Source of the DNA: Candidatus Nanoarchaeia archaeon
Lineage (GTDB): Archaea > Nanobdellota > Nanobdellia > Woesearchaeales > JACPBV01
Reading direction: 5' to 3'
DNA length: 64,000 nucleotides
Assembly (NCBI GenBank): GCA_028279655.1
Contig: JANQNH010000004.1
Span: 62,001 to 126,000 of the forward strand
Under the pieces are notes generated by a model. That model made no database searches. It saw only the letters and a list, made by a program, of their open reading frames with translations, and had not been told where the DNA came from. Shown piece by piece: positions 23,451 to 53,480 of the stretch (the first letter of the stretch is position 1; every line of letters begins with the position of its first letter). Made by a program: the position numbers and the translations under genes.

Positions 23451-24425
23451 ATGTCGCCCTATCCAAAAGAGGTCTGCCTAGAGGCATCATCCGTATGTCA
23501 ACTAAGATGCCCTATCTGCCCCACAGGAAAACAAGAAACAAGAAATAACACTATAGGGCAAGGTTACCTAAAATTTAAAGATTTTAAGATTTTCATAGAT
23601 AAAAACCCACATATAAAAAACATAGAATTATCTAATTTTGGTGAAATTTTCTTAAATCCAGAACTCAAACAGATAATCCGGTACGCATACATACACGGGG
23701 TAAAATTAACAGCAAGAAACGGAGTAAACCTAAACAACACAGATAAGGAAACCCTAAAATTTTTAGTAAGATATAATTTTGAATGTTTAAGCGTTTCCAT
23801 GGATGGAGCATCAAACCAAACATACAAACTTTACCGTATTGGAGGAGATTTTAATAAAGTAATCAAAAACATCAAAACAATCAATCGACATAAAAAGACA
23901 TATCATTCAGATCTGCCGAGACTATGGTGGCAATTTATAATATTTGGGCATAACGAACACGAATTGCCTAAAGCAAGAAGCATGGCTGCAGTTCTTGGTA
24001 TGAAATTTGTGCCCAAGCTAAACTGGGACCCCTCGTTTTCTCCTGTAATCAACAAAGAGTTTGTCAGAAAAGAAAGCGGATTAGGCGTAGCTTCCAGAGA
24101 AGAATATAGCCAAAAAAACCAAAAAAACTACATTTTACCATGTACTCAACTATGGTCCTCTCCACAGATTAACTGGGATGGAAGGCTCCTTGGTTGTTGC
24201 TCTAATGACAACTTCGGGGATTTTGGAGTGAATGTTTTTAAAATAGGTCTAGAAAACGCATTAAAAAGTGAGAAATATGTTTATGCTAAGGATATGCTAT
24301 CTGGAAAAAAACCACCTAGGTCAGACATACCCTGTTCTAAATGCAAATACTACCTAAATTTTCTAAAAGATAACAAAAAAACAACCAAGATGATTCAAGA
24401 GCTAGAATCTAAACAACACACCTAG
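23451..24425 (+). CDS. Radical SAM/SPASM protein
   Basis: The 324-residue protein has the radical SAM cluster motif C16-x3-C20-x2-C23 (CQLRCPIC) and a C-terminal SPASM-type region with CTQLW, GRLLGCCSND, FGDFG and CSKCKYY, which should hold auxiliary 4Fe-4S clusters. SPASM enzymes modify peptides, carbohydrates (BtrN type) or cofactors; the substrate is not evident here. It is the first gene of the radical SAM/glycosyltransferase region and lies next to the origin. A stretch of about 130 nt with no gene separates it from the following membrane protein. Confidence 0.85.
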   Translation: MSPYPKEVCLEASSVCQLRCPICPTGKQETRNNTIGQGYLKFKDFKIFIDKNPHIKNIELSNFGEIFLNPELKQIIRYAYIHGVKLTARNGVNLNNTDKETLKFLVRYNFECLSVSMDGASNQTYKLYRIGGDFNKVIKNIKTINRHKKTYHSDLPRLWWQFIIFGHNEHELPKARSMAAVLGMKFVPKLNWDPSFSPVINKEFVRKESGLGVASREEYSQKNQKNYILPCTQLWSSPQINWDGRLLGCCSNDNFGDFGVNVFKIGLENALKSEKYVYAKDMLSGKKPPRSDIPCSKCKYYLNFLKDNKKTTKMIQELESKQHT

Positions 24426-24558
24426 ACCCTCTTCCTAGACCCATTTTATGTTAATCCTTCTTGAGTAGAAAGAAATCTTTATTAACTAAAAACAACTAAA
24501 AGCAATCTGATGATAGGAATGAAACTATCCTTCAAAACACACTTAAATTTTAGATAAA

Positions 24559-25356
24559 ATGCCTCAAACAAATCTAAAAGAATACATAAAAAATAACCTT
24601 GAAAAAGGGTATGGCCTAAACACAATCAGGATAGCTTTGCTTAGGTGGGGGTACAGTCCAAAAGACACCGATCCAATATTGGTCAAATTAATGCAACAAA
24701 CCCCAGAAACTAACGATAATCAAACCAACAAATCTGAGATTCAAAACCCTTTTTTGAAGCTGATCATAAATCCAAATGCCTTCTTTGAAGAAACAGACAC
24801 TTATCAGCTTAACAAATCCATGAAATACCTCTTTTACTCTTTCCTTGTATTCTTTATATTCAACCCACTTATACTCTTTACTATTAACCTTATTAAAAAA
24901 AATAAATCAAGTATTCTGATTGCAACCTTATTGACAAATACAATCTCTAATCTATTTTTTTCAATATCCCTCCTTATCCTTTGCTCTTTGTTCCTGGGTG
25001 CTGTTTTTCTGACTCTGAGATTTGCCATAAAAAGGGCCCCAAATCCAAGAATGATGATATCCTCCTTTTCTTTCTCTATTGTGCCGTATATCTTAATTAA
25101 TTCCTTGAGCAACCTTGACTTCTATCCGATTGTCTCAATAATAAGTATGAATATTGGTTTTTTGAATCTTAATGTCTTTTTCTTGTGGTCTCTTGCCCTA
25201 TTTTCCTTGGCAATCTCAAAAAATATGAATATAGATTACAAAAGAACCCTTGTTCTTGTTCTAATACCGTTTTTTGTCCTATTGGGAATTATAATCCTCT
25301 CTTTCTTCAGTGCAATAAAGGCAGGGCTGCTAGGCTTGGTTTTTGAGGTATTCTAA
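24559..25356 (+). CDS. Yip1-like integral membrane protein
   Basis: The 265-residue protein begins with a soluble helical module (about residues 5-40, YIKNNLEKGYGLNTIRIALLRWGYSP) of a kind often found before membrane domains in DPANN proteins. Five to six TM helices follow (about 92-112, 120-152, 165-185, 192-225, 230-262), with a Yip1-like spacing of hydrophobic blocks. No catalytic residues are visible. It lies between two radical SAM genes and could be a scaffold or carrier for the cluster, but that is context only. Confidence 0.6.
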   Translation: MPQTNLKEYIKNNLEKGYGLNTIRIALLRWGYSPKDTDPILVKLMQQTPETNDNQTNKSEIQNPFLKLIINPNAFFEETDTYQLNKSMKYLFYSFLVFFIFNPLILFTINLIKKNKSSILIATLLTNTISNLFFSISLLILCSLFLGAVFLTLRFAIKRAPNPRMMISSFSFSIVPYILINSLSNLDFYPIVSIISMNIGFLNLNVFFLWSLALFSLAISKNMNIDYKRTLVLVLIPFFVLLGIIILSFFSAIKAGLLGLVFEVF

Positions 25357-25480
25357 CATTTTCCCTCCAACCCTAAAAGCGAAAGATTAAAGAAATACGC
25401 TGCCTTCTTTATATTGGGGGGTATCTAACCATAAATGCGGAGATCATCTAAATATCCTTGTCTTATAAAAAAGGGAAAAA

Positions 25481-27304
25481 ATGATTGTACCAAATGAAGT
25501 CTTAATCGAGCTAACTCAAAGATGCAATCTTGCTTGTGATTTTTGTTTTAATAAGCAGGAAAACAAACCGCCAGACCCCCCTCTTGAAAGAATAGCCAGG
25601 ATACTGGAGGATATAAAAGATTCAAAAATAAATGCTGTTAGGTTCACCGGAGGGGAACCCTTATTACGGGAGGACATTAAAGAAGTTCTAAAGCAGGCAA
25701 AGGAGTTAGGACTATATGTTATCCTAAATACAAACTCTTCTCTGATAAATGAAAAAAACAAACAAAGTTTCAGATATGTTGACTTGGCCCTTTTTTCTCT
25801 GCACTCACCCTCAAGATTTTCAGAAACCAAGGAAAAAATTAGTGCATTAAAAGAATTTCCTCTTAAAATACTTTTAGGGACCATCACTACCAAACGCAAT
25901 ATAACAAACCTGGGTTTATTTTATGGCTTTGTATGTGGGTTAGAACAGGACAATCTAGAAGAATGGTTCCTTTTAAGGCAGGTTCCAAATAAACAAATCC
26001 CTCACCCATTATCCCTTTCAGACATGGATATGCTTTTTGAAGAAGTATCCAAATATAATAAAAGATATGGGAAAAAAATCCAGATAGCTAATGCCTTGCC
26101 TTTTTGTACTACAAAGCAGGATTGGTCTTCTATCTGCAAGGGCGGCATTTATGATTCAGGATATAGTCGGCTTATCATTGACTGTAAAGGGCAGTACAGG
26201 ACAGATTATTTCTCTGCACCCCTGGGTAACATAAAACACCAGAAGATTATGGACATCTGGAACCTGCCAGGACTTAAGAAACTTAGGGATTATGGGTGCG
26301 TGCCAGATGAGTGTAAAAAATGTTATTATCTACATAAATGCAAGGGGGGGCTGGTCAACAACGAACCATTATACGGGTTTGACAATGTGGGGTGCTTAGC
26401 CAGCATAGTAATCCCTACCTTTAATGGTCCTGAGAGGCTAGGCTTGCTGATTAAGAGCCTGGAAAATCAAACATGCAACAATTTTGAAATAGTTGTTGTT
26501 GACGACGGGAGCACAGACAATACAAAATCCTTTGTTGAAGGATTGATCAACGAATCAAAACTGGACATAAGGTACTTCTACTTAGATAATACGGATATAT
26601 TTGGTGCTGGCATTGCAAGAAACTACGGAGCAAAACAAGCTAGAGGGAAGATACTTATATTCCTTGACCAGGACAACATTGTACACCCCAATCTGGTTGC
26701 TAATCACTTACACGAACAAGAAGACAAAGACGTTGTTTTAGGTTATTATGCGGGTTACGGAAATAAAAATTATCACTATGATCTAGCTAAGCTAAAAAAA
26801 CTAACAAAATCCAACAAGACCACAAAAACAATTATCCCAGAGTTTAGAGACAAGATATTCAAAGAGCCCAACAACTTCCGTGAAGGATGGGAATTTTTTG
26901 TTTCTGCCAATTTTTCAATAAAGAAAGAGATATTCCTAAACTTTCTTTTCGATGAAAACATAGTTAGTTGGGGGGCAGAGGATACCGAACTGGGATATAG
27001 GTTAGTAAAACACGGACACCCCCTATTTTTCTGCAAGGAATGCTTTTCTATAAATACATCTGAAGGAAAAATTTTTGACAGAAAAAAATTTGTTTCATCA
27101 ACACGTGGGCTAGTCTACTCTTTTCATAAGCATAATTCAGAAAAAATCAAGGAATACTGCTTTGAGAGGTTCAATAATACCCCCGCAGAGATAAGGGGGA
27201 ACGCTAAACTCATTGATAATGGAGATAAACTGGTTTTTAATCCACCAACAAGGTTGGATAGATCTACAGGATTAAATCTAATTCCCGCAAAAACACCAAA
27301 ATGA
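25481..27304 (+). CDS. Radical SAM/SPASM - glycosyltransferase family 2 fusion
   Basis: The 607-residue protein is a continuous fusion. Residues 1-300 are a radical SAM enzyme with C15-x3-C19-x2-C22, the GGEP motif at 57-60 and a SPASM-type Cys set at about 219-290 (CKGGIYD, DCKGQY, CVPDECKKCYYLHKC). Residues 308-600 are a GT-A family 2 glycosyltransferase: ASIVIPTFNGPERL, VVVDDGSTDNT near 340 and the metal-site-like FLDQDN near 394, then a later WGAEDTELGYR segment. No frameshift or linker break is visible. The stop overlaps the next ATG (27301-27304). Coupling a radical modification to sugar transfer in one chain suggests both act on the same glycoconjugate. Confidence 0.85.
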   Translation: MIVPNEVLIELTQRCNLACDFCFNKQENKPPDPPLERIARILEDIKDSKINAVRFTGGEPLLREDIKEVLKQAKELGLYVILNTNSSLINEKNKQSFRYVDLALFSLHSPSRFSETKEKISALKEFPLKILLGTITTKRNITNLGLFYGFVCGLEQDNLEEWFLLRQVPNKQIPHPLSLSDMDMLFEEVSKYNKRYGKKIQIANALPFCTTKQDWSSICKGGIYDSGYSRLIIDCKGQYRTDYFSAPLGNIKHQKIMDIWNLPGLKKLRDYGCVPDECKKCYYLHKCKGGLVNNEPLYGFDNVGCLASIVIPTFNGPERLGLLIKSLENQTCNNFEIVVVDDGSTDNTKSFVEGLINESKLDIRYFYLDNTDIFGAGIARNYGAKQARGKILIFLDQDNIVHPNLVANHLHEQEDKDVVLGYYAGYGNKNYHYDLAKLKKLTKSNKTTKTIIPEFRDKIFKEPNNFREGWEFFVSANFSIKKEIFLNFLFDENIVSWGAEDTELGYRLVKHGHPLFFCKECFSINTSEGKIFDRKKFVSSTRGLVYSFHKHNSEKIKEYCFERFNNTPAEIRGNAKLIDNGDKLVFNPPTRLDRSTGLNLIPAKTPK

Positions 27305-30300
27305 AAGTTTTAATGCACGCCATAAACGGCATAGGCCTAGGCCACATAATTAGGACACTAGAGGTCGCTAAGGCCCTTAGAGAAATGAGGGGAACCATAG
27401 ATATAGTTTTTGTAACTAATTCAAGATTTCCAGACCCCATTAAAGAAGAGGGATTCAGATTTTACCAACTTGAACCAAACACAAAGGATGTCTTGGATAA
27501 GAATATCTCTTATCAGGACTACCTGGAATCCAACGCAAAGCACATTACCAGAATAATTGACAAGGAATGTCCTGATCTAGTGTTATTTGACTGTGAAATC
27601 AATCCCCCTATAATTGATTTTTGTTTACAGAACAAAATCAAAACAGCACTTACCCTAAGAAACACCCTCAAGGAAAGGCTTATGAATATAATTAGGGAAG
27701 GAATCTTATCAAAAATTGACCTAATCCTAGTCCCACATCATGAAAACGAACTGGAGGACGAACAAAGAACAGCCCTGAAAGAGCTTAACAATGTACTCTT
27801 CATAGGGCCAATCATAAGAGAAAAAAAAGATATTGAACCAGAAAAAAAGGAAGCAGCCCTAAGGATCCTTATAACATTTTCTTCAGGCTCAGATATCCAA
27901 GAAAACCAACCACTCTTCAAAAAAGTATCTGAATTCCTAAGATACCTTAATGATAACAGTTCAAAGGTTTTGGGTAAATCAATTAGAATTGACCTGATAA
28001 CTGGCCCTTTTTTTAAGCATAAGTCCTTTAATCTATATGGTTTTGATTACAGGGAATTTGATCCCAATCTTATAGGTAGTCTAGAAAAAGCAGACCTCAT
28101 AATCTCTCCAGCAGGGTACAACACAGCGAATGAGATAATCTACACAAGAACCCCTGCATTGTTCATCCCTGTAAAAAGGCAAGGAGACGATCAGTTCTCC
28201 AGAGCAAGAAGGTTACATGACATGGGATGTGCTAAGATTGTAGAAGACTCCATCCTAAAAATAATAGAAGACATAGTCAAGGGAGAAATAGATATAAAAA
28301 AGATGAAAGACTGTTTTCCATCGCTTCATCCAGGAAACAAAAAAGCAGCAATAGAATTGGTCCGCTTACTGGGATTTAGGAAAAAGATAGCAATATTGAG
28401 GTCAAACTGGCTTCCCCTCTCTGAGAGATTCATATTTGATGAGTTGGATTCTCTGGAATTTCATGAACCATACATCTTCTGCCTGCACAAGGAATCTCCC
28501 CACAAATCTTCCTTTAAGTATATCTATGATGAAGGCTTTGAAGGGTTATGGAATAAAGAATTTCCATTTATTAAAAATAAACAGATTAAATTATATGAGG
28601 AGTACATAACCTGGTGCGCAAGCAAGATAAAATCAGCAGGAATAAGGTTGCTGCATGCTCCATTCCTAACAGACGCGCTATTTTTTCTCAAGCTAAAGAA
28701 ACTAACAAATCTCCCACTAATAGTCTCTGTAAGGGGCCACGATATATACTCAACCGACAAAATGAATTTCTCCAATTTACTAAAAGGGGCAGACCTATTC
28801 TTAGTAAGGTCTGATACCATGAAAGATGAGTTAATCTCTTTGGGAGGAAATCCAAAAAAAATAAAGGTCCATCATTCAGCAATAAGAATCTCTGAAAAAC
28901 CACCAGAAACCAAAATAACCAAAAACCTTAGAATTTTGATGGTAGGTAGGTTTGTAGAGAAAAAAGCCACCCTCTTGGGTATAGAAATATTTAACAAAGC
29001 CTGTGAGAGATTTGATAATATATCCATGACCATTGTTGGAGATGGACCTTTAAAAGAAGAAGTTTTAAAGAAAAAGAATCAAAGCCTATTTTCTGAAAAG
29101 ATAGATCTTCTGGGAGAGTTACCTAACAAAGAAGTTTTGGAGATAATGAGCCGTTGCCAGATCCTGTTACATCCTTCAATAACAGCAATAGACGGGGATA
29201 AAGAAGGGATACCCAATTCAATTATGGAAGCAATATCTCTAGGCCTTATAGTCGTCTCAAGCGACAACGGCAGCATACCTGAGATTATTGAAGATAAAAA
29301 GACAGGATTTACTTTCAAAGAAAACAGCCTGGACCAGGCCATAAGAACACTCTCCATGGTTCTGAGAATCAAAGATCTTAGGAAGATACAGCAAGCAGCC
29401 TTTGAAAAAGTAAAAAGAGAATTCGATATCAAGAAGCAAACAGAAAAAATAGAGATGATCTATGATGGATTCTTGAGGGCCAGAGAAGATTTTAACAGAT
29501 TTGACAGATATTATACCAATTATATTGAGATTCAGCATACCGATACACCAACTTCATTTAGGGTAGACATCCACCCGATCAGGGGGTGCAACTCTGGATG
29601 CATTATTTGTGACAACTGGAAGAACGAAGTAAAGGGATTTTTTTCTATAGATAAGCTAAAAGAACTGATTGATGATCTTGAAAAGATAGGCATAGATGAG
29701 ATAAGGTTTCACGGACAAGAACCAACATTATTCAAAAAACTGCCTTTACTTGTTCAATATGCAAAAAGCAAGGACATTCGTATAGGGTTGAAGACCAACG
29801 CCAATAATCTGGATCAAGAATACTGTAAGGGGATTAGCCAAGTAGATAAGATATATCTTTCGATTGATTCTCCAGACAAGGATATCCACAACAAATTAAG
29901 GGGAAACCTCTCATCTTTTGACAACAACATAAATGCAATAAATTACTTAAGGAAATATTCCAACAACATATCAATAGAATCAAATGCAGTAGTGACCAAC
30001 CTTAACTACAAATCGTTGGTGTATATGCCAGACTTCGCTTTTGACAACCAAATAGACAAGATTAGCTTTGTATTGCCAAACTCAAAAAACAAAAAAGACA
30101 TATTTTCACTTACTTTACAAAAAGAACAATTAGAAGAGTTTTTTCTTGGATTAGTTCCAAAAATTATAAAGAAATGTATAAAATATAACCTGGATTTTGA
30201 TTTTAGCCCTTTCTTTGCAGAGCTTGTTTTAGAAAGCCCACTAAAACAAGCATATGATTTAAAACACCATCCCTCAAAATTTACTAAGGAGTTAAAGGAC

Positions 30301-31872
30301 TACGCGAATATGGACTATGGACTGGAATTTTTCAAAAAATATGGTTGTTACAGTCAGTTAGATCACCTAACGATAAACTACGAAGGCAGCGTGTTTCCTT
30401 GCTGTGTTGTTGAAAGAACAAACAGCAACAGGGTTGGGGATATAATTGATTCCAATTTTCATGAAATCTGGGGCAGCAAAAAGTATCTCAATCTAAGAAA
30501 GGATACGATACGAACAAATGGGATGCTATGCCAAAATTCGATTAGATGTGGTAGCAATTTTGAGATAAGAAAGGCCCTGGCTAAAAGAATTAATGAATTA
30601 CAGTCAAAGGACGAAATAGAAGCATTAAGCTCCTTGCAAGAATTGAATAATTTTCTTTTTTGTGATAATGACACTCTTAATAATATAAAGGAAAAGAAGC
30701 TAAGACACATTATTGCCTTCTGCTTGGACAAGATACCCTTCTACAAAAACCAAACCTACAGGAACAAGATCATAGATGCACATCTAACCCTTTCATCCTT
30801 TAACCTACTAGATAAACAAGAAGTAAGGAACAGCATCTATAATGGAATGATAAATGAAGATTATATTGAAAGTCCGGCCCTTATCTTAGACCGGACCTCT
30901 GGATCCATAGATACCTCTGTTCCATTTGCATATATGAAGGGCTTTGACAGGTACATAAGGATGGTTTATCCATTCATGATACACTCTGACTGGAAATGGG
31001 GGGAAGAATACCTTACATTTACCACATTGCATTGTAGCAGAGAAAGATGCAGCTCAGAAGACCTACCTTACTATGTCAAGAGGAAGAAAATACCAACATC
31101 AGATGATATATTTAAGGATAAACGCGCATTGACAAACGCCTTTAATATACTAACAAAGAACCCAAATTCCTTATTACATGCAGATCCATACTATCTCTTA
31201 GCTCTAGCCCTATACATTAACAAAAACTACAAGAAAATTAAGTTAAGGGCTATAAGTTCAACATACGAATTGTTGCTGCCCGGAATCAAAAATTATCTAG
31301 AAAGCACCTTCCAATGTAATGTTTTCGACAGTTATGGATCCTCTGAATTTGGACCAATTTCCTTTAGCTGTGAAAAAGGGAACCAGCACATTTTCGAGAA
31401 TTCTGTTAATATAGAGATTATCGAAAAAGGAAGATACCTAGATCCTAGGGTAGGAGAGATAATAGCTACATCCTTAGATAACAAAGTAATGCCTTTGATT
31501 AGGTATAGGACAGGAGATTTAGGAAGGACAATCCAAAAAAAATGTGCTTGTGGAAGGAACAGCACAATAATTGAAATATTTGGAAGAAAAGAACGCTGCT
31601 TAATACTAAATAATACCAGATATACCGAGAAGGACGTTGCAGGATTAATGGATATCCAGGGGGTATTGGTATACCAGATCTTCAGGAAAGAAAACCTCCT
31701 TTCTCTTCTAATACTCCCATCAGAAAACAGCAATGAGGTATTTATTGAGGAAAAAATCAGGGATAACTTTGGCAAGGTATGTGATTTAGAAATCGATGTA
31801 GTCTTTGTTGATTCCATTACTCCAGAAGGATCTGGTAAATTTTCATCAATAAAACATACTAGGTGTGCTTAG
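27301..31872 (+). CDS. Four-module megaprotein: GT-B + GT4 + radical SAM/SPASM + PaaK/CapK-like adenylate-forming domain
   Basis: This single 1523-residue frame has four recognisable parts. Residues 1-355 are a MurG/UGT-like GT-B glycosyltransferase (GIGLGH near 10, SPAGYNTANEIIY near 270). Residues 361-725 are a second GT-B enzyme of GT4 type (VSVRGHDIYS, VGRFVEKK near 546, EGIPNSIMEA with the E-x7-E pair, GSIPEII). Residues 745-1100 are a radical SAM unit, C763-x3-C767-x2-C770, with a degenerate GQEP in place of GGEP and SPASM cysteines near 1015-1040 and 1080. Residues 1131-1523 resemble PaaK/CapK adenylate-forming enzymes: TSGS near 1200, YGSSEFG near 1343, RYRTGDLG near 1401 and a Cys cluster CACGRN. 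It is translationally coupled to the preceding fusion. Such enzymes activate carboxylates; the acceptor is unknown. Confidence 0.85.
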   Translation: MKVLMHAINGIGLGHIIRTLEVAKALREMRGTIDIVFVTNSRFPDPIKEEGFRFYQLEPNTKDVLDKNISYQDYLESNAKHITRIIDKECPDLVLFDCEINPPIIDFCLQNKIKTALTLRNTLKERLMNIIREGILSKIDLILVPHHENELEDEQRTALKELNNVLFIGPIIREKKDIEPEKKEAALRILITFSSGSDIQENQPLFKKVSEFLRYLNDNSSKVLGKSIRIDLITGPFFKHKSFNLYGFDYREFDPNLIGSLEKADLIISPAGYNTANEIIYTRTPALFIPVKRQGDDQFSRARRLHDMGCAKIVEDSILKIIEDIVKGEIDIKKMKDCFPSLHPGNKKAAIELVRLLGFRKKIAILRSNWLPLSERFIFDELDSLEFHEPYIFCLHKESPHKSSFKYIYDEGFEGLWNKEFPFIKNKQIKLYEEYITWCASKIKSAGIRLLHAPFLTDALFFLKLKKLTNLPLIVSVRGHDIYSTDKMNFSNLLKGADLFLVRSDTMKDELISLGGNPKKIKVHHSAIRISEKPPETKITKNLRILMVGRFVEKKATLLGIEIFNKACERFDNISMTIVGDGPLKEEVLKKKNQSLFSEKIDLLGELPNKEVLEIMSRCQILLHPSITAIDGDKEGIPNSIMEAISLGLIVVSSDNGSIPEIIEDKKTGFTFKENSLDQAIRTLSMVLRIKDLRKIQQAAFEKVKREFDIKKQTEKIEMIYDGFLRAREDFNRFDRYYTNYIEIQHTDTPTSFRVDIHPIRGCNSGCIICDNWKNEVKGFFSIDKLKELIDDLEKIGIDEIRFHGQEPTLFKKLPLLVQYAKSKDIRIGLKTNANNLDQEYCKGISQVDKIYLSIDSPDKDIHNKLRGNLSSFDNNINAINYLRKYSNNISIESNAVVTNLNYKSLVYMPDFAFDNQIDKISFVLPNSKNKKDIFSLTLQKEQLEEFFLGLVPKIIKKCIKYNLDFDFSPFFAELVLESPLKQAYDLKHHPSKFTKELKDYANMDYGLEFFKKYGCYSQLDHLTINYEGSVFPCCVVERTNSNRVGDIIDSNFHEIWGSKKYLNLRKDTIRTNGMLCQNSIRCGSNFEIRKALAKRINELQSKDEIEALSSLQELNNFLFCDNDTLNNIKEKKLRHIIAFCLDKIPFYKNQTYRNKIIDAHLTLSSFNLLDKQEVRNSIYNGMINEDYIESPALILDRTSGSIDTSVPFAYMKGFDRYIRMVYPFMIHSDWKWGEEYLTFTTLHCSRERCSSEDLPYYVKRKKIPTSDDIFKDKRALTNAFNILTKNPNSLLHADPYYLLALALYINKNYKKIKLRAISSTYELLLPGIKNYLESTFQCNVFDSYGSSEFGPISFSCEKGNQHIFENSVNIEIIEKGRYLDPRVGEIIATSLDNKVMPLIRYRTGDLGRTIQKKCACGRNSTIIEIFGRKERCLILNNTRYTEKDVAGLMDIQGVLVYQIFRKENLLSLLILPSENSNEVFIEEKIRDNFGKVCDLEIDVVFVDSITPEGSGKFSSIKHTRCA

Positions 31873-31873
31873 G

Positions 31874-32962: not shown

Positions 32963-32963
32963 G

Positions 32964-35126
32964 ATGAATCAAAAGATATTGTTTTACTATCATCATTTTG
33001 GGGGACTAGGACATGGTACTAGGATCCTCTCCTTATGCAAAACCATTAAGGTAAATAATCCTGCCTGTAGGCTAGTTGTAATAAATAGCGGGCCACCTCA
33101 ACCAGAGTTAGGGATTGAAAGGTATGCAAGGGTAATCAATCTTCCTTTTTTTACAGCAAAATCCGGTTTGTTCTCTGGTCTAAACTCCATGGGGAGCACA
33201 GAATCAACCTTTAGGAAAAGGAAAATGATTATTGAAAGGGTTGCTAGAATATTCTCCCCAGATATTGCCATATTTGAGCACTTTCCTTTTGGAAGATACG
33301 AGCTATTAATGGAGATAGTACCATTTATCGAGGACCTAAGAAATAGAAGAACCATGATATATTCCTCAGTAAGGGACATTATAGTACAGAAAATCAATGA
33401 AAAACAACTAGATAACTTATTAGACCTTTTTAATGGTGTGTTGATACACTCAAATATGGAAGAGGGTTTTATCACCAGTTTTGAAAAGACCAAGAAGCTT
33501 CAGGAAAAGATGATATTCACAGGAAGGATCTTTAAAAAGCAAAAAGACGAATTATTACCGAAAAACAGGATTAGAAAACAATTAGACATTACCAATAAAA
33601 AACTTATAGTAGCTGGCATAGGAGGGGGCATTGATGGATTAGAGATCCTAAAGGACATCATAGATTTAAAAATAGATCTGGAAAAAACACTAAGTGCAGG
33701 GATTTTACTCTTGATATCTACAGGCCCATCTATTGAAGATAAAAAATTTACAGAATTAAAAAATCAGGCAAAAACAAAAAAGGATATATTGATTACACGG
33801 TTTAATCCAAATTATATTGATTATATCAATGCGGCAGACCTTGCTATCTCGATGGGAGGCTACAATTCAGTTAACGATGCATTATTGACAGGCACCAAAA
33901 CAATTATCGTACCTAGAGAGTCAGATGAAGAACAGCCAATAAGGGCAAAATTATTCTCAGATGCCTTATATTCCTTCCCTTCTAAGAAATTCAAAAATAA
34001 AAAAGAGACCATTAATATGCTAGTAGACGTCTTATCAAAAGAAAATTCAAAACCAAGAACCGCAGGGTCAAATAATCAGTTCCTGAAGATAATGCAGAAT
34101 ATTGGTACGCTTAAGCTCCTCAAGATAAGGCTGACAAATGAATGCTATTGTAATTGTGATATGTGTACATGGATAAAAGAACCAAAAAAGGCCTTATCCT
34201 TAGATTCAGTCAAGGCAATCGTGAGAGACGCAAAAAAATTAGGTGTAGAGGTAATTAACTTAACAGGAGGAGAACCAACAATCCACAATAATTTTAAGGA
34301 CATCTTTGAATATATTAAAGGACAAAACATGGAGATCAGCTTATCTACCAACCTGGGATTTAACAACGATATTCTTGATTTTATCATAACTAACCAAGTA
34401 AATCATCTGGACTTTTCATTGGATTTTAATAATCCATTAGAGTTCGATAAAGCAAGAGCAAAACCAGGACTTTTTAACAGAATTGAGAAGAACATTTCTA
34501 AACTAAACAGATTGTTGCCTGATTGTAACCTTTATCTCAATTTTACAGTAAGGAGAGATAATTTCAGACAGGCCCCGGATATAGTGGATTTTTGCAGGAA
34601 ACACCAGATACATTCAATAGAATTTCATTTAGTCCAAAAAAACAAAAACAATGAAAGATACGTTAAAGATTTATTGTTAGATAAACAGAACCTGAAAGAC
34701 TTCTATTTTGAAGTAGTCCCTCTAATTTTAAAAAAGGCAAATCGAGAGGTCGATGTCAGGATATGCCCTTCTATATCCGAATTGGATGGACTACCTACAT
34801 CAAGCAAGATACTGAAAATTCTTTTATTGAAAGATCAGTTATACGATAAATGGACTCAAAGGCTGTCTGACCTATACTGTAACGGGAAGAACCTTACTTC
34901 TAAAAATAGAGATGGCAATCTCACACCCAGTTGTGATTTTGAAAAAAACCTAAGAATAAATATGGATGGGGAATACTCTCCTTGTTGCACTTATGACGAA
35001 TCTAACCAATTTTCAAATATTAAAGAAAAAAACCTTTTTGATCTTTGGATCAATCACTCTTACAATTCAAAACCATTCCCTTTTGAAAGGTGTTCTTCCT
35101 GCTTAGAAAACGACCTACTGTTCTAA
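32964..35126 (+). CDS. GT-B glycosyltransferase - radical SAM/SPASM fusion
   Basis: The 720-residue chain begins with a MurG/UGT-like GT-B domain (about residues 1-370: HHFGGLGHGTRI at the N terminus, AGIGGGIDG near 218, AISMGGYNSVNDALL near 295). It continues with a radical SAM enzyme, C394-x3-C398-x2-C401, TGGEPT near 434, and SPASM cysteines in CDFEKN, SPCCTYDE and CSSCLEND near the end. The domain order is the reverse of the radical SAM-GT2 fusion upstream. It shares its N-terminal half with the first module of the megaprotein. Its last 12 nt overlap the end of the convergent asparagine-synthetase-like gene. Confidence 0.85.
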   Translation: MNQKILFYYHHFGGLGHGTRILSLCKTIKVNNPACRLVVINSGPPQPELGIERYARVINLPFFTAKSGLFSGLNSMGSTESTFRKRKMIIERVARIFSPDIAIFEHFPFGRYELLMEIVPFIEDLRNRRTMIYSSVRDIIVQKINEKQLDNLLDLFNGVLIHSNMEEGFITSFEKTKKLQEKMIFTGRIFKKQKDELLPKNRIRKQLDITNKKLIVAGIGGGIDGLEILKDIIDLKIDLEKTLSAGILLLISTGPSIEDKKFTELKNQAKTKKDILITRFNPNYIDYINAADLAISMGGYNSVNDALLTGTKTIIVPRESDEEQPIRAKLFSDALYSFPSKKFKNKKETINMLVDVLSKENSKPRTAGSNNQFLKIMQNIGTLKLLKIRLTNECYCNCDMCTWIKEPKKALSLDSVKAIVRDAKKLGVEVINLTGGEPTIHNNFKDIFEYIKGQNMEISLSTNLGFNNDILDFIITNQVNHLDFSLDFNNPLEFDKARAKPGLFNRIEKNISKLNRLLPDCNLYLNFTVRRDNFRQAPDIVDFCRKHQIHSIEFHLVQKNKNNERYVKDLLLDKQNLKDFYFEVVPLILKKANREVDVRICPSISELDGLPTSSKILKILLLKDQLYDKWTQRLSDLYCNGKNLTSKNRDGNLTPSCDFEKNLRINMDGEYSPCCTYDESNQFSNIKEKNLFDLWINHSYNSKPFPFERCSSCLENDLLF

Positions 35127-36800
35127 AAAGACCTTCCGATACCATATAGATAGATTTAGGAGTATCCATACCTTCATATTATCTTTATACCTTCCATCTT
35201 CTTTATCTATTATTCCTCCTATGTATTCTTTGACCTTGCTGCTCCAAAGATTTCCATCAAACTGGTCCAATATCCATTTTTTATTTTGTTTGAACCAAAG
35301 ATTAAAGGGTGCTGTAAATCCTTCCTTCTGCCTTTCTGTTATGTAACCAGGTATTCTTCCTTCAAATGCTTTCTTCAATACATACTTTTGTTTGAATCCC
35401 TTGATCTTTAAATCCCCTGGGATCCTTCCAGAATAATCCACTAGTTTATTATAAGTATATGGGAGGATAAGGTTAACATCATTTACTTTTGCTGGTTCTG
35501 TAAGATGAAAGATTCTTCTTTGTGATGCAATCTTGAGGTCAGTATAAATCTGCCGGTCTAATACATTTGAGAACTTCACGCTGTTATATACATCAATTAC
35601 AGGACGGTTGAGTTTTACATTTTTAAAGGAACTCGTGATCTCTTCATTAAAAACATCATTGACATCGCTTCCTGTAAAAAACACCTCTCCGTATTTATAG
35701 TGCTTAAACTCAGAGTAATTATCATTCTGGTCCATAAATTCAGAAATCACCGACCCTCCTGCAGTATTCTTTGCCAGTATTTTTTGTTCAACAGGAACAT
35801 CTTGCCAGAACAAACTGGAGATCTTATCCTTAACATACGTTTGCATACCTGCAAAAAGTATATCTGAGAATTCACCTGCAAAAAGATTAGGGGTCTCCTT
35901 CTTGGCACAGTCCATTATTATATGTGCTTGTAGAAGGGAGCTGTCAGCCAAGGGCTCATCCATATAATCATATATTTCAGGAAGGCGTCTTATTGAATCT
36001 GGTCCAATCTCGATGTCCTGATGCTTTGATCCTATATCTTGAGCTACCCTTATTCCATATCTATTCCCTCCATAGGTTCTATCGTATGGATACACCCCAG
36101 TAAATGTGTAAAAATCAACGCCTAATTCCTTGAGTGTATAGGCTATAATTGACGAATCCAACCCCCCTGACAACAACAGCCCGATTTTTTGGTTTCTTAG
36201 TTTACTAACACTTTCTTTTATAGAATCTACCAATAATCTTCTTACAGATCGAACATGATATTCTTCATCATCAGCTTTCACAGGATCAAAACGAAGATCC
36301 CAATACTTTTCGATAGATAAGCCTTCTCTCACTTTAACTACACTTGCAGCAGGGACTTTGAATACTCCTTTAAACATAGTAAGGGGCCTCGGTATGAATT
36401 GATAGACCAGATAGTATCTAAGGGATGTTGGATCGATCTCCTTCTTTAGACCAACCTTAAATAATTCTTTAGGTTTTGTGGCAAAGAAAACAGATCCCCC
36501 ATTCTCAGAGTAGAACAGGTCGCCAATACCTAGCCTATCGATACCTAGATCTAATTCCTTTTTTTTCTTGTCATACCTCAAAAGATAAAATGAGCCATCC
36601 AGATCTTTGATAGAACCAAGGTTTTTAATATAGGATATATCAGATGTACAGTTAGTTACCAATATGCTTTTTTCGTCTTCAAGGATAGTTTCTTTCTTAT
36701 CAGAATATATATCGATAAAACCATCCCTGAATACCAATGAGTCAGCAGAATGTGAGAAAGAGGAACTCCTGCCCGAGTTGTTAAAAACACCGAATACCAT
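35115..36800 (-). CDS. Asparagine synthetase-like amidotransferase lacking the glutaminase Cys
   Basis: The 561-residue protein has the class II AsnB layout: an N-terminal Ntn-type domain (about 1-160, with LDGSFYLLRYD and GIDRLGIGDLFY) and a C-terminal synthetase domain with the PP-loop SGGLDSS at 211-217, FAGEFSDILFAG and an EGFTAPFNLWFK-like end. The expected Cys2 nucleophile is absent: the chain begins MVFGVFNNSG. It therefore cannot hydrolyse glutamine in the usual way and may use free ammonia or another amine. Lasso-peptide cyclases and exopolysaccharide-cluster AsnB homologues are relatives to consider. A TATA box (GATTTAAATAG near 36827) gives a leaderless mRNA. Confidence 0.82.
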   Translation of the reverse strand: MVFGVFNNSGRSSSFSHSADSLVFRDGFIDIYSDKKETILEDEKSILVTNCTSDISYIKNLGSIKDLDGSFYLLRYDKKKKELDLGIDRLGIGDLFYSENGGSVFFATKPKELFKVGLKKEIDPTSLRYYLVYQFIPRPLTMFKGVFKVPAASVVKVREGLSIEKYWDLRFDPVKADDEEYHVRSVRRLLVDSIKESVSKLRNQKIGLLLSGGLDSSIIAYTLKELGVDFYTFTGVYPYDRTYGGNRYGIRVAQDIGSKHQDIEIGPDSIRRLPEIYDYMDEPLADSSLLQAHIIMDCAKKETPNLFAGEFSDILFAGMQTYVKDKISSLFWQDVPVEQKILAKNTAGGSVISEFMDQNDNYSEFKHYKYGEVFFTGSDVNDVFNEEITSSFKNVKLNRPVIDVYNSVKFSNVLDRQIYTDLKIASQRRIFHLTEPAKVNDVNLILPYTYNKLVDYSGRIPGDLKIKGFKQKYVLKKAFEGRIPGYITERQKEGFTAPFNLWFKQNKKWILDQFDGNLWSSKVKEYIGGIIDKEDGRYKDNMKVWILLNLSIWYRKVFLEQ

Positions 36801-36883
36801 GATTGAATTAACGTAGCACTGCTATTTAAATCTTGCGCTAAAAATAGAAACATTTTTAAAAATCATTATTATATGTATATGGG

Positions 36884-37483
36884 ATGCCTTCAAACAAGAG
36901 GATTACTACTTTGGTTGTTCTGATAGTTGTATTGATATCTCTTATGCTCATTGTACTAAGGTTAGTCTCTGATCCTGAAGAAAAGCCTTTTGATCAGACA
37001 TTTGTTGTTGTTGAAGATGAATCCTTACTTAGGGTAGATGACGAGTTTCCAAATTGTGCTGCCCTGGCAAGCAGAGACATCAGCGAATGCAGTAGTTATT
37101 ATTATGATATCCCTCCAACAGAATCACAGGAACAGATGCAAAAAAGATGTGAATTTGAAAGTGCACAGATATTATCTCTTCATGACTCTGATAAGTCCTA
37201 CTGCAGAAGTATCATGGACGGAAACCTCAGAAACCTGTGTATAGCTGTCAATGACAAAAGATGCGATACCATAAGTTCGTTCAAAGAGCTTTGTGAATCC
37301 TTGGTTGATTTGGATGTTGAATCATGTGGGGATTATAATAAAAAGGAAATAGACTGCGAACATATAATCTCTATTGTCAGGGATGCAAAAGAGGGAGACT
37401 GCATACAAGAGCACAAATATATCTATAATAAATGCAAGGCCCTTAAAGACAGGAATAAGGAATTCTGTACCCTTGTGGAGTAA
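36884..37483 (+). CDS. Membrane-anchored Cys-rich protein of unknown function
   Basis: The 199-residue protein has an N-terminal TM anchor (about residues 8-28) followed by an acidic domain of about 170 residues with many regularly spaced cysteines (for example CAALASRDISECSSYY, CEFESAQ, SYCRSI, LCIAVNDKRCD, SCGDY, DCEHI, DCIQEHKY). The spacing suggests a disulphide-rich helical repeat outside the cell. No family is recognised. A TATA box (TTTTTAAAAA near 36855) lies about 28 nt before the ATG. It sits inside the radical SAM/glycosyltransferase region, so it might be an acceptor or accessory protein. Confidence 0.6.
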   Translation: MPSNKRITTLVVLIVVLISLMLIVLRLVSDPEEKPFDQTFVVVEDESLLRVDDEFPNCAALASRDISECSSYYYDIPPTESQEQMQKRCEFESAQILSLHDSDKSYCRSIMDGNLRNLCIAVNDKRCDTISSFKELCESLVDLDVESCGDYNKKEIDCEHIISIVRDAKEGDCIQEHKYIYNKCKALKDRNKEFCTLVE

Positions 37484-37497
37484 GCCGTAAAACTATT

Positions 37498-38355
37498 TTA
37501 TATCATCAAACTTTTCAGATGTTTGATCTTTTGAGACAGATATTTTTTGTCTATTCTATTTATTTTGCAGTACCCTATATCTGCAAGGCAGAACAAAAGC
37601 GAACACTTGTTCAACTTATTCTCAAAATCATCCGGCAAAGAACGAGTAGCTTTATAACCTTCAAGGAAAGCAGCACTGGCAACCTTTGATTTCATAGTTC
37701 CATCTCCAAAATCCTTTAAAAAATTGTAAAAATCCTTAAATATGCTAAATATCCTGATGCCTTCCAAATCAACAAAGCAGCATTCTTTATCTGGTTTTAC
37801 AATTACATTGCAAAAACTAAGATCATTATGGATAATAGAGATATCTTGCGTCAACAACCCACCAATTTTATCTAAAACATCCCTTAATCTATCTATTCCT
37901 TTGGTACTTAAACATTTTGAATCCAATACCTCCCTGATTCCAACCCCTATTTCATCTTTAATCTCCTTGAGATATTCTTTGTCAGATTTCAAATGTGCAG
38001 GAAGGTCATCTAATGAGATTCTATGTAATCTCCCAAGATTGACCCCAACATTACGAAATACCTCTTTTATATCATTTAGATTACTGGCATTATGAAAATA
38101 TATCCTAAGTTCTAGGCCCTTTTCCTTATTGTAACTAAATGAAGTGCAATCCTTCTCTCCTTCTATCGAATTGTAGCATATACTGTTAACTCCTTCTTTC
38201 TTTATTATCCTTAGAATACCCCCTATTTCACCTATCCTGTTAGGGCTAACTTTGCATTTTTTAATGATAATCCCGTTCTTATCAGTAATCTCCAGAGTAT
38301 CATTCAGTCCTTTAATAGAGTTTATTAAATCTGGTCGCAAACAGAATCGCCCCAA
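37498..38355 (-). CDS. APH/Bud32-like phosphotransferase
   Basis: The 285-residue protein has the aminoglycoside-phosphotransferase/choline-kinase catalytic signature: H176-N-D178-L-S-F-C-N183 (H-x-D-x4-N) and the metal motif VDLEG with D196. The N-lobe ATP-binding part is weakly conserved. Relatives phosphorylate small molecules such as sugars, choline or antibiotics; a sugar kinase role would fit the surrounding cluster. The start is TTG 38355 in the present reading and no in-frame ATG lies near. A TATA-like stretch and a palindrome lie about 30-45 nt upstream. Confidence 0.7.
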   Translation of the reverse strand: MGRFCLRPDLINSIKGLNDTLEITDKNGIIIKKCKVSPNRIGEIGGILRIIKKEGVNSICYNSIEGEKDCTSFSYNKEKGLELRIYFHNASNLNDIKEVFRNVGVNLGRLHRISLDDLPAHLKSDKEYLKEIKDEIGVGIREVLDSKCLSTKGIDRLRDVLDKIGGLLTQDISIIHNDLSFCNVIVKPDKECCFVDLEGIRIFSIFKDFYNFLKDFGDGTMKSKVASAAFLEGYKATRSLPDDFENKLNKCSLLFCLADIGYCKINRIDKKYLSQKIKHLKSLMI

Positions 38356-38380
38356 TGTCCAATAATAAATAATACAGTCT

Positions 38381-38395
38381 TAGGTATTATACCTA
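38381..38395. promoter_or_regulatory. Inverted repeat between divergent kinase and tandem radical SAM genes
   Basis: TAGGTAT-T-ATACCTA is a perfect 7-1-7 inverted repeat, followed by a third ATACCTA-like half site at 38399-38405. It overlaps the probable TATA region of the minus-strand kinase gene and may be an operator. Confidence 0.35.
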
Positions 38396-38534
38396 TATAT
38401 ACCTATAAAATATAATCTCCTCTAGTTTATTAAAATTATGATTTCGATCCAGATACCCGGTTCAGATATGAAAACACCTATATGTGCTATTAGCAATATA
38501 TATTTAAAGGACATTTGACTATCTAATTGTACCT

Positions 38535-40394
38535 ATGATAAGGTCAATTAATTGGATAATAACAAATAGATGTAATTCTCGCTGTATCCATTGTGATATC
38601 TGGCAAACAAAAGGAAAAGAACTGAAAAAGCAAGACATAGAGGATATCTTAAGTGACAGGTTCATCCAACAAAGCTACGACATATACAAAGAAAATTTTG
38701 ATATTTCCCTTGGTGGAGGCGAGCCCTTCTTGAGAGAGGACCTAATAAATATCGTAGATATAATTGATAAGAAATATCCAAACAGCATAAAGACAATATC
38801 TACAAATGGTCTTCTGACCAAGAAGATACTTGAATTACTAAAACAAAAAAGCAATCTTGGATTCAAGCTAAATATCAGTGTTGATGGGATAGGTAAAGTC
38901 CACGATGAGATCAGAGGATTCCAAGGAGCCTTCAAAACAACATTAAACACAATTAGACAGATACGAAGATTTTTCCCAACCCAGAAAGTCGAACTAAAGC
39001 TTACACTACATCCAAGAAATTTTGATCAAATATTGAGGGTATATGATCTATCTCAAAAAATGGGATGTGATTTTTCATTTAAACCGGCTGAAAATATGGA
39101 GTTCTATACAAACAGAAATACCTCTCTTCAATTGGATTTTACCGGGGATCAGTTGTGCATAGTTAGGAATCAGGCTTTTAAGCTATCGGATATAGTGTAC
39201 CTAAAAGGAGACTATAAGAAATCCAGGTTTTTTAAGGATATCCCCTTTTATCTGGCAGATAAGCGAAAGCCAAAACGATGCTCAGTACTTAAGCAGCACA
39301 TTACTCTCATGCCTGATGGAGATTGTTACTTTTGTATAAAAGAGCCGAAAAAGGGCAACGCCTTAAAAGACGAAATTTCCAGGTTAATTCCTGAACATAA
39401 CCATGATTTTACATGCAAATCTTGTATGCTTATGTGTGGTTTATATAAGGATTATCCCTCTAATTTCTACAGGAACAAAGTTGCGAACATAGAGTCAACC
39501 CTTGCCTGCAATTTAGATTGTGAACTGTGCACTCAAAAACAAATAAGACAAAATGGAGGAGAAGCTATGAACATGGAAAAATTCAAGCACCTGCTTAAAA
39601 AACACCCATCTATCACCCACATATCCTTTATTGGAGGAGAACCATTCTTAGACAAACACCTTTTTGACAGGTTGGACTATCTCGATAGTAAAGGAATCAC
39701 TTATGAGATTACAACGAATGGCACTTTAATAGATGAAAAGACAATATCCGTGCTAAAAGATTGCATAGGTCTAAAAAAGATTAATTTTTCTATAGATGGT
39801 TTGGAAGAATACCATGATGCTTCAAGGGGGAAAGGTGTTTTTACAAAATGTGTAAGGGCAATTAATCTAACCAAAGGTTTTTTTAACATAAATGTTTGTA
39901 CTATGATGAACCACGATAATCTTCAAGAGATCCCACAGCTTACAAGGTATTTACACAAAATAGGGGTTAGACATCATAAGATAATTAATGCCATCAATTT
40001 TCCATCGAGTGTTATGGAGAACACAACAAAATCTACCTCCAATCTGAAAATCCAGGGGCCTTCCTTTAGTAATCCAAAAAAGAATTATAAAAAAATAAAT
40101 GATTTATTTTATGATCTTGACAACCTATCAAAAAATCTTAAAATGAGTATCGATTATGAACCAATAGTAATGAGAGAAGATCTAAAATCATTTCTTAATG
40201 GTTCCTTATCTCAAAAACAAAACCTATCCTGTAAACAGTTGAGACAACTAAGATTTGATTCTTCTGGAGAGAGGATTATATGTGAATTCATCAGAAATAA
40301 ACACACTCCTGAAATAGAGTCAGAGTTATCAAAGAATCTGCTTCCGATCTGCGAATATTGTTGTAAATTAGAGGTAAAAGATCTTAAAGGATAA
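38535..40394 (+). CDS. Tandem (double) radical SAM protein
   Basis: The 619-residue protein contains two complete radical SAM units. The first has C13-x3-C17-x2-C20, GGGEP near 61 and a Cys-rich end (CSVLKQH, CYFC, CKSCMLMC) at about 255-305. The second starts near 316 with C325-x3-C329-x2-C332, IGGEPFL near 369 and a short C-terminal Cys set (CKQLR, CEFIR, ICEYCCKLE). Both halves resemble SPASM/Twitch enzymes. A TATA box (ATATATTTAAAGG near 38500) lies about 33 nt before the ATG. The next radical SAM gene follows after 1 nt. Confidence 0.87.
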   Translation: MIRSINWIITNRCNSRCIHCDIWQTKGKELKKQDIEDILSDRFIQQSYDIYKENFDISLGGGEPFLREDLINIVDIIDKKYPNSIKTISTNGLLTKKILELLKQKSNLGFKLNISVDGIGKVHDEIRGFQGAFKTTLNTIRQIRRFFPTQKVELKLTLHPRNFDQILRVYDLSQKMGCDFSFKPAENMEFYTNRNTSLQLDFTGDQLCIVRNQAFKLSDIVYLKGDYKKSRFFKDIPFYLADKRKPKRCSVLKQHITLMPDGDCYFCIKEPKKGNALKDEISRLIPEHNHDFTCKSCMLMCGLYKDYPSNFYRNKVANIESTLACNLDCELCTQKQIRQNGGEAMNMEKFKHLLKKHPSITHISFIGGEPFLDKHLFDRLDYLDSKGITYEITTNGTLIDEKTISVLKDCIGLKKINFSIDGLEEYHDASRGKGVFTKCVRAINLTKGFFNINVCTMMNHDNLQEIPQLTRYLHKIGVRHHKIINAINFPSSVMENTTKSTSNLKIQGPSFSNPKKNYKKINDLFYDLDNLSKNLKMSIDYEPIVMREDLKSFLNGSLSQKQNLSCKQLRQLRFDSSGERIICEFIRNKHTPEIESELSKNLLPICEYCCKLEVKDLKG

Positions 40395-40395
40395 G

Positions 40396-41322
40396 ATGGA
40401 CAACAAAATCAAGAAAATCAATATTGCACTGACAAACAGGTGTAATCTTAAATGCATCATGTGTGACATTTGGAAGGAAAAACCAAAGATTGACCTTCCT
40501 TTGTCAAACATTAACAACATACTTAATTCTCAATTCTTAGATTCAAATACAGATATTGCTTTTACAGGAGGGGAACCGTTTATGCATGGACAACTCTCTA
40601 AAATTACAGATTTCGTATTGAAAAAGTTCCCTTTGTCTTTAAAGACAATATCTACAAATGGAACACATACAGCAAAAATTCTTGAATATCTAAACGAATT
40701 CAATAAAACCCTGCCTAAGGGCTTTTCTATCCACATAAGTTTAGACGGTATAGCACTCTATAATGCTCAGAGAGGAGGTTCCCCAGAGAATATTTTTGAT
40801 ACCATCAAAACAGTAAAAAAGCAATTTCCAGCAACAACCCTGAAGATAAAATTTACAATAACCCCTCTAAATTACCCGGACCTTCTTCCAACATACAGGT
40901 TCTCTAAAAAGGAAAATCTAGATTTTAGAATTAAGATAGTAGAATGTGCAGAAAATTACACCAACAAGCTAGAATCAAAAGATTTTCCTTTTAGCAATTC
41001 CTCAAAAAAGCAAATTGTTAAGGATCTGTTAAAAATATATAATGATAAGCTAACAACTGATAGAACTAATGCGCTTTTTATTAAAAATACAATGATGTTC
41101 TTGCTTGGCAAGACAAGACCTCATTTTTGTAAGGTACCCAAGGAAAGGATATTTGTAATGCCTAACGGAGATGTTTATTCCTGCATCCATTCTAACAAGA
41201 TAGGAAACCTAAACGAAAACCCCCTTGATACGATATGGAACTCTAAGAAAGCAGCTGCAATTAGGGAAGAAAAAGAAGAACAGTGCAACAAATGCGTTGC
41301 ATATCATGGAATAACTTATTGA
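40396..41322 (+). CDS. Radical SAM protein related to the preceding tandem enzyme
   Basis: The 308-residue enzyme has C16-x3-C20-x2-C23 (CNLKCIMC), TGGEPF near residue 58, and a SPASM-like end with CKVPKERIFVMPNGDVYSCIHSNKIGNLNENPLDTIWNS and CNKCVAYHG. It closely resembles the first half of the tandem protein just upstream (both have NRCN...C..CDIW and TISTNG), so the pair probably arose by duplication. The last 7 nt overlap the convergent aminotransferase gene. Confidence 0.87.
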   Translation: MDNKIKKINIALTNRCNLKCIMCDIWKEKPKIDLPLSNINNILNSQFLDSNTDIAFTGGEPFMHGQLSKITDFVLKKFPLSLKTISTNGTHTAKILEYLNEFNKTLPKGFSIHISLDGIALYNAQRGGSPENIFDTIKTVKKQFPATTLKIKFTITPLNYPDLLPTYRFSKKENLDFRIKIVECAENYTNKLESKDFPFSNSSKKQIVKDLLKIYNDKLTTDRTNALFIKNTMMFLLGKTRPHFCKVPKERIFVMPNGDVYSCIHSNKIGNLNENPLDTIWNSKKAAAIREEKEEQCNKCVAYHGITY

Positions 41323-42407
41323 AATTCGTTTATACGATCGCATATGTCCCTTATCTCTTTATCCGTTATACCAATAAACGAAGGAAGACTTAAGATGGAA
41401 TCCGCCACCTCCTCAGCAACAGGAAAATCCCCTCTTTTATATCCAAGGTAGGAGTAGGTTTCAGTTAGGTGCAGTGGCACCTTATATCTTGCCGCTGTTT
41501 CTATTCCATGATCTTGTAAGAATTTCTGTAATTCCGTTCTATGGCTGGTTTTTATGCAATAGTCCCTATAGACTGGATAAGAATCCTTGCTTAGCACTAT
41601 CTTACTTACCCTCTTCTCTATAATAAGTTTGTTATACAACTCCGCAATCTCATTCTTTCTTTCATTAAAACGATCCAAATAACTTAATTTAACCTTAAGT
41701 ATGGCGGTTTGCAAAGGGCTAATAACACAAGGGGTTCTCCTAGATAACAATATCTCTCTAGTATTATTGTCAGGGAGCATAAGTTGTCTTATATTATTGT
41801 ACAATCCATCGTTTAAACAAATAATCCCTGCATCTCCTATCCCTCCTAAGGTCTTTGAGGTATGAAGACTAAAACAACCAACACCAAACCCCCCAACTCT
41901 CTTACCTTTGTATTTAGCTCCATGTGCCTGGCTAGCATCTTCAATAAGTGCTAGTTTGTTTTTCTTGCAGATCTCACTGATATGATCAATTTCACAAGGA
42001 TTTCCATGGATATGTACAGGAATTATTGCTTTGGTTTTTCTTGTTATTTTGGGCCCTACCACATCTGGGTCTAGAGTCATATCCTCTTTGACATCTGCAA
42101 ATACAGGAGTTGCACCTAAGTTTGATATTGCTAATGCTGTAGATATATATGTATAGCAAGGGAGGATTACCTCATCCCCTTCTTTTATCCCTAATGCAGC
42201 CATACTCAACTGCAGAGCAGAAGTCCCCGAGTCAACACCTATTGCCAATTTTGCACCACAATAACCTGCAAAATTTTCCTCAAATTCTTCAATATATGCT
42301 GAATAATCATGATTCCTATTTAGGTTAAGGACACGGTTTATCTCTCGCAGAAATTCTTTCTTTAATTCCCTATTAATTCTCGAATAATCCTGAAATGGGG
42401 TGTCCAT
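41316..42407 (-). CDS. DegT/DnrJ/EryC1/StrS-family PLP aminotransferase
   Basis: The 363-residue protein belongs to the sugar aminotransferase family (fold type I), which transfers an amino group to keto-sugars bound to nucleotides or cyclitols. The PLP lysine is K185 in FSLHTSKTLGGIGDAG, with VDSGTSALQ near 58 and EDASQAHGA at 156-164. A TATA box (GATATAAATAAG near 42436) lies about 27 nt upstream. In 2-deoxystreptamine and related pathways such enzymes work next to SPASM-type radical SAM dehydrogenases, a useful analogy for the radical SAM genes beside it. Confidence 0.9.
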   Translation of the reverse strand: MDTPFQDYSRINRELKKEFLREINRVLNLNRNHDYSAYIEEFEENFAGYCGAKLAIGVDSGTSALQLSMAALGIKEGDEVILPCYTYISTALAISNLGATPVFADVKEDMTLDPDVVGPKITRKTKAIIPVHIHGNPCEIDHISEICKKNKLALIEDASQAHGAKYKGKRVGGFGVGCFSLHTSKTLGGIGDAGIICLNDGLYNNIRQLMLPDNNTREILLSRRTPCVISPLQTAILKVKLSYLDRFNERKNEIAELYNKLIIEKRVSKIVLSKDSYPVYRDYCIKTSHRTELQKFLQDHGIETAARYKVPLHLTETYSYLGYKRGDFPVAEEVADSILSLPSFIGITDKEIRDICDRINEFQ

Positions 42408-44117: not shown

Positions 44118-44118
44118 T

Positions 44119-44743: not shown

Positions 44744-44751
44744 TTTCCCCC

Positions 44752-49316: not shown

Positions 49317-49350
49317 ATAATAATCAAAAACACATCTTGAGGTGAATAAG

Positions 49351-51624: not shown

Positions 51625-51736
51625 TATTAATTATTTTTATTTTGGTTTTTTAGAAATGTTTAAATACACTTCTATCCACTTCATTAATTTGACATAGGAT
51701 TTGCTCTAGCAAAAAAAAAGAGGTTAATAGCATATA

Positions 51737-53437: not shown

Positions 53438-53480
53438 ATCTTCTTAAACCCAATTGAACCAAAAGCTTTAAATACTTACT

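Follow-up and report, generated by a model that had tools for sequence, protein, structure and literature searches.

The His-Xaa-Ser (Hxs) peptide-modification system was described in silico by Haft and Basu, according to PMC9062424, which cites them. Its proteins are recognized by the models TIGR03976 (HxsD), TIGR03977 (HxsC) and TIGR03978 (HxsB). In mycofactocin biosynthesis, the radical S-adenosylmethionine (rSAM) enzyme MftC acts on a peptide, and the family 2 glycosyltransferase (GT2) MftF oligoglycosylates the product (PMC7491314). A 2025 survey of archaeal peptides presents rSAM-modified classes and clusters for ribosomally synthesized and post-translationally modified peptides that reach DPANN archaea; a term search of it gave neither Woesearchaeota nor glycosyl (PMC12144867). 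Nothing joining Woesearchaeota, radical SAM and glycosyltransferase was found in a literature search. Such a combination is encoded in a 64,000-nucleotide stretch of DNA, hereafter the window, from an uncultured DPANN archaeon of the Woesearchaeales (contig JANQNH010000004.1, positions 62,001 to 126,000). Its 19-kb block of rSAM and glycosyltransferase (GT) genes, at positions 23451–42407, appears to belong to an adjoining Hxs system.

The locus is best read as a form of the Hxs peptide system, found in Woesearchaeota, that glycosylates and uses multiple rSAM enzymes, and a probability of about 0.6 is assigned to the block being the accessory half of this archaeal system. The assignment is made because genes for hxsA, hxsB, hxsD2, hxsD and an A24 peptidase adjoin the block, because the rSAM half of protein C of the block belongs to a subfamily mostly encoded beside hxsA or hxsB, with C orthologues following hxsA in two loci (L145 and L192), and because protein H of the block belongs to an Hxs-associated Cys-rich family.

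As in the mycofactocin system (MftA–MftF), the window combines a ribosomal peptide, rSAM/SPASM enzymes, a GT2 and a peptidase that could serve for release. In contrast to that system, rSAM domains are far more numerous here, GTs are joined to them in single proteins, and the precursor is of another kind. The mycofactocin models were not reached: protein C scores 52.3 bits against MftF (TIGR03965, cut-off 280) and the best match to MftC (TIGR03962) scores 99.9 (cut-off 265). By analogy, mycofactocin is the nearest functional counterpart through its pairing of rSAM and GT2, with no family match. The MftC–MftF pair shows that rSAM and GT2 enzymes can be combined in this way.

The Hxs genes beside the block

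The earlier note, made from the sequence alone, ended the block at 42407, one gene short of hxsA, hxsB, hxsD2, hxsD and the A24 peptidase-like gene (42473–45858). These genes, directly beside and co-oriented with the DegT aminotransferase gene, are the key to the locus. The hxsA gene (42473–42754, minus strand, as for all five) encodes a precursor-like peptide of 93 residues, matched by NF038309 with an E-value of 2.9e-5 and 23.8 bits (cut-off 65). It consists of a leader, a hydrophobic segment and a C-terminus with His and Ser, Tyr being the last residue. It is clearly homologous to the HxSHxS peptides of relatives, which have in common a leader (resembling PKxKKxxxxFLxxE[ED]GxISK), a hydrophobic segment and a tail rich in His and Ser that often ends with Trp or Tyr. 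Two HxsA homologues elsewhere (L093:6973-7572 and L068:1005-1577, both minus strand) carry a fused Peptidase_S74 domain, an intramolecular chaperone of the kind found in trimeric fibres.

HxsB (42741–44117, 458 residues) is an rSAM/SPASM maturase that exceeds the cut-off of TIGR03978 (461 versus 370 bits), and HxsD (44300–44743, 147 residues) scores marginally below that of TIGR03976 (49.9 versus 50 bits, E-value 3e-13). The clustering of these genes is also as in the Hxs system, and the HxsA-like peptide, with its leader and His/Ser-containing core, would agree with it. The window differs from it in that no protein reaches the HxsC model, the best score being 94.7 bits for the two summed domains of protein J (cut-off 267.9), and in the addition of the A24 peptidase, a second small HxsD, the Cys-rich protein H and many rSAM/GT fusions. 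The second HxsD, HxsD2 (44119–44337, 72 residues), is conserved between hxsD and hxsB; in most Hxs loci, an HxsD-like open reading frame (ORF) of 64–112 residues accompanies hxsD. This, together with the small α/β fold predicted for HxsD, which has weak RPB11/Pcc1-like similarity (E-value 0.02), suggests that HxsD and HxsD2 may form a pair.

The last gene of the group (44752–45858) encodes a membrane protease with an Arc_PepC domain (Pfam), similar to the A24 (prepilin/preflagellin) peptidases. Both Asp motifs of these enzymes are present, SxxDx5IxN as SYEDIRYGKIRN and the GxGD-like AGD as WTAGDGKL. Among homologues, SxxDx5IxN and W[ST]AGDxKL are mostly kept, with an AGD or GGD motif in 50 of 57. 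An A24 peptidase was found near HxsB in 43 of 65 loci, versus one match in 20 control regions.

Linkage to Hxs loci in related genomes

The survey covered 353 genomes of the same order, 49 of which have an HxsB over the cut-off, and about 60 HxsB neighbourhoods were compared with the 20 control regions. Besides HxsB itself, rSAM domains occur at 2.8 per 20 kb near hxsB (61 loci of relatives plus the window) versus 0.18 in the controls. As the profile used for this count was built partly from the same loci, the count was repeated with PF04055: by hand, at least 25 non-HxsB rSAM genes were counted within 10 kb of 9 HxsB genes in 8 genomes, versus 2.9 expected (Poisson). Blocks with several rSAM genes often flank hxsB in this archaeal order, and of the enzyme families compared, rSAM domains and the subfamily of the C rSAM half are the only ones clearly enriched there. 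Records labelled Omnitrophota, Patescibacteria and Elusimicrobia (L155, L157, L162, L165, L166, L168-L172 and L176-L178) contain HxsB too, mostly with HxsD and at times with HxsA and extra rSAM genes.

Protein C (25481–27304, plus strand, 607 residues) is an rSAM/SPASM–GT2 fusion (Pfam). When the 353 genomes were searched with C, which introduces no bias for Hxs, its rSAM half was matched by 14 loci other than its own. For nine of these, HxsB is encoded on the same contig no more than 10 kb away (binomial, about 1e-13), and a tenth has an HxsA gene nearby, at the contig edge (genome G157, L192). In the nearest case (G176, L040), hxsB and hxsA are followed by the orthologue of the C rSAM half (57% identity) as the first gene past hxsA. 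The order on one strand of L145 is hxsD, hxsD2, hxsB, hxsA, an orthologue of C and a GT28–rSAM fusion. The orthologue is 46% identical over nearly the full length of C and carries an extra polysaccharide deacetylase domain. The rSAM part of the fusion is 36% identical to protein K, and HxsB shares 72% identity with its counterpart in the window. The HxsA gene of L192 precedes a reverse-strand rSAM gene and then an rSAM–GT2–GT2–rSAM protein of at least 1999 residues, and L070 has a GT28–rSAM–rSAM–GT2 fusion near HxsA/HxsB.

Protein D (27301–31872, plus strand, 1523 residues) combines GT28/MJ1255-like, GT4, rSAM/SPASM and PaaK-like adenylating domains. Orthologues of its residues 1–726 were found in L021 (49%) and L118 (40%), the closest being in genomes G044 and G136, with DegT–rSAM fusions nearby. 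The G044 contig with the C and D orthologues contains a gene block collinear with the genes past hxsA in G136, and most of these genes are 45–56% identical. Long orthologues elsewhere of the rSAM–GT2 fusion (56/46%) and of the GT28–GT4 fusion (49/40%) show that these are not chance, and the early observation that several activities are joined in single chains stands. In a sample of the phylum, close relatives of the GT28 fusions were found in the archaeon's own order only. Co-occurrence in other DPANN genomes had been proposed as the check: the cluster genes do recur together in relatives, and those with names are Candidatus Woesearchaeota.

Protein H (36884–37483, plus strand) is encoded mid-cluster, between G and I, and has an N-terminal transmembrane (TM) segment and a Cys-rich helical part. 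Cys-rich proteins with an N-terminal TM segment are encoded directly after hxsA in many loci, including records labelled Omnitrophota and Elusimicrobia. An iterated profile of this family, seeded without the window protein, recruited H at 2.3e-7 in the round before its inclusion; below 1e-4 the family numbers 36 proteins, the majority of which are encoded in Hxs loci. In the AlphaFold model of H (mean predicted local distance difference test score, 85), a TM-like helix is joined to an all-helical domain for which no fold match was found in the PDB. In L139 (11300-13417), hxsA and a Cys-rich gene of the H type are duplicated in tandem.

Gene content of the block

The ORFs were confirmed at their coordinates, and domains were assigned with Pfam and NCBIfam models. 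The inventory given in the earlier note holds, with eight intact rSAM domains in seven proteins (A, C, D, E, F, J twice and K). The four GT domains are divided among C (GT2), D (GT28-C and GT1/GT4) and F (GT28-C), and besides them the block encodes a PaaK-like ligase domain, the DegT aminotransferase, one AsnB homologue, a kinase of the APH type and two membrane proteins. CX3CX2C is kept by all eight rSAM domains. On the plus strand, the block starts with the rSAM/SPASM protein A (23451–24425, 324 residues, CX3CX2C at 16), for which the Radical_SAM score is 29.3 bits (cut-off 29.5) and SPASM is matched as well, and the Yip1-domain membrane protein B (24559–25356, 265 residues, PF04893). C and D are followed by E (31865–32962, 365 residues, GTG start), an rSAM/SPASM protein, and F (32964–35126, 720 residues), a GT28–rSAM/SPASM fusion. 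The PaaK-like part of D is matched by NCBIfam at 1.1e-27. Beyond H, the plus strand encodes the double rSAM protein J (38535–40394, 619 residues) and the rSAM/SPASM protein K (40396–41322, 308 residues). Because of the gene spacing (C and D overlap by 4 bases and D and E by 8; 1 base separates E from F and J from K), C–F and J–K look like transcription units.

Three proteins of the block are encoded on the minus strand. G (35115–36800, 561 residues) is AsnB-like, with a match to no more than the end of the glutaminase domain. As it starts with MVFGVF, there is no Cys at position 2, in agreement with its earlier description as Cys-less, and the synthetase half retains its SGGLDSS motif. G resembles peptide cyclases such as the lasso cyclase in having an AsnB-type synthetase half but no functional glutaminase Cys; it scores 74.9 bits against the cyclase model NF033535 (cut-off 525) and is nearer to generic AsnB. 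I (37498–38355, 285 residues) is an APH/choline-kinase-like kinase. L (41316–42407, 363 residues), the DegT aminotransferase 65 bp downstream of hxsA and co-oriented with it, retains the pyridoxal phosphate (PLP) lysine region. Its best relative is in L123 (about 53%), where K also has a relative, as in the Hxs loci L145, L076 and L078. L076 and L078 were considered as a compact copy of the cluster and rejected: their DegT is a generic relative (33%), and only the link through the K-like rSAM protein stands.

Past the peptidase gene, at 46215–64000, lie very large ORFs of 1033, 760, 566, 1880 and at least 1511 residues, one of which has weak Ig-like matches; they are likely surface proteins. 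The 2-Mb genome of the archaeon encodes 45 rSAM domains, and a second rSAM-rich region, with DegT and GT2 genes, is found at G000:C26:17001-57000 (L028, L029), where no Hxs genes were recognized.

Alternative readings and a proposed pathway

Several findings weigh against assigning the block to the Hxs system. The contigs that carry the C and D orthologues in G044 and G136 lack hxsB, and no end overlap joins contigs C41 and C82 of G044 or C71 and C78 of G136. GT, PaaK, DegT, AsnB and APH as whole families are not clearly enriched near hxsB, and the GT fusion is absent from many Hxs loci. H joins its family only in the iterated profile, being about 21–25% identical to aligned members, and the AsnB search found no close orthologue of G (best, 29%). 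L145 is on a contig labelled Parcubacteria, which may be a mis-binned archaeal contig, and no product or chemistry reported for HxsB was found in the literature search.

Some of these points would also be expected if the block made a cell-surface glycan or glycolipid and merely shared a surface-gene island with Hxs, namely the contigs without hxsB and the GT families as such not being enriched. The large ORFs past the peptidase gene would fit such an island too, as would the polysaccharide deacetylase, LPG_synthase_TM, carbamoyltransferase and methyltransferase genes present in Hxs-linked loci elsewhere. This is nevertheless considered unlikely, as the C rSAM half proved mostly Hxs-linked in an unbiased search and orthologues of C come after hxsA, directly so in L145, while no flippase, polymerase, oligosaccharyltransferase or nucleotide diphosphate (NDP)-sugar pathway was recognized by Pfam in the block. 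Still less probable is that it modifies some other, unrecognized peptide or surface protein, HxsA being a separate product. HxS units are few in the window's HxsA, and no HxsA-like ORF was found in the stretches searched of the cluster contigs of G044 and G136; against this, no second precursor-like peptide was recognized, and hxsA is the common neighbour in L145, L192 and L040.

Synthesis of a small aminosugar or cofactor of the BtrN/DesII type, by DegT and rSAM enzymes acting on a nucleotide sugar, is likewise very doubtful. An rSAM gene does stand beside DegT here, the two are fused in L021 and L118, and L keeps its PLP lysine region. However, the DesII model TIGR04426 is matched by protein A alone, with 17.5 bits (cut-off 450), the block contains neither NDP-sugar nor lipid-carrier genes, eight rSAM domains and four GTs exceed the need of such a pathway, and the block is linked to a peptide system. 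Of the radical-modified amino-glycan or glycoconjugate it proposed, a glycoconjugate with radical chemistry is still the best guess, and the free amino-glycan, drawn by analogy to BtrN, is not supported; the HxsA peptide is the likelier scaffold because of the linkage between the locus and the Hxs system.

With the block as the accessory half of the Hxs system, what it makes is most likely a surface peptide that is both glycosylated and heavily modified, and not a free glycan. We infer that HxsA is the acceptor, and the chemistry of all steps likewise. HxsB, with HxsD and HxsD2, would act on the His/Ser-containing core of HxsA, and the C-type and other rSAM/SPASM domains would add to the radical modifications. 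Sugars would be attached to the peptide by the GT2, GT28 and GT4 domains of the fusion proteins, which would keep radical and glycosyl chemistry together on a single substrate. Formation or attachment of amino, amide or acyl groups might fall to the DegT enzyme, the Cys-less AsnB homologue, the PaaK-like domain and the kinase. Leader removal by the A24 peptidase would resemble pilin maturation, with cleavage perhaps following the conserved Gly of E-[DE]-G-K-I-S-K, and H, Cys-rich and predicted to face outward, may handle or anchor the product at the cell surface. Tentatively, the locus could represent a new class of ribosomal product, surface-anchored, matured by a prepilin peptidase, radical-modified at many positions, glycosylated by chimeric rSAM–GT enzymes and recurrent in small-genome DPANN archaea.

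Many rSAM genes of the relatives are grouped around one peptide system for which no chemistry was found in the literature. Single-chain rSAM–GT fusions encoded beside a peptide precursor offer a directly testable pair of enzyme and substrate, and they may be a sign that DPANN cells carry a new type of glycopeptide on their surface.

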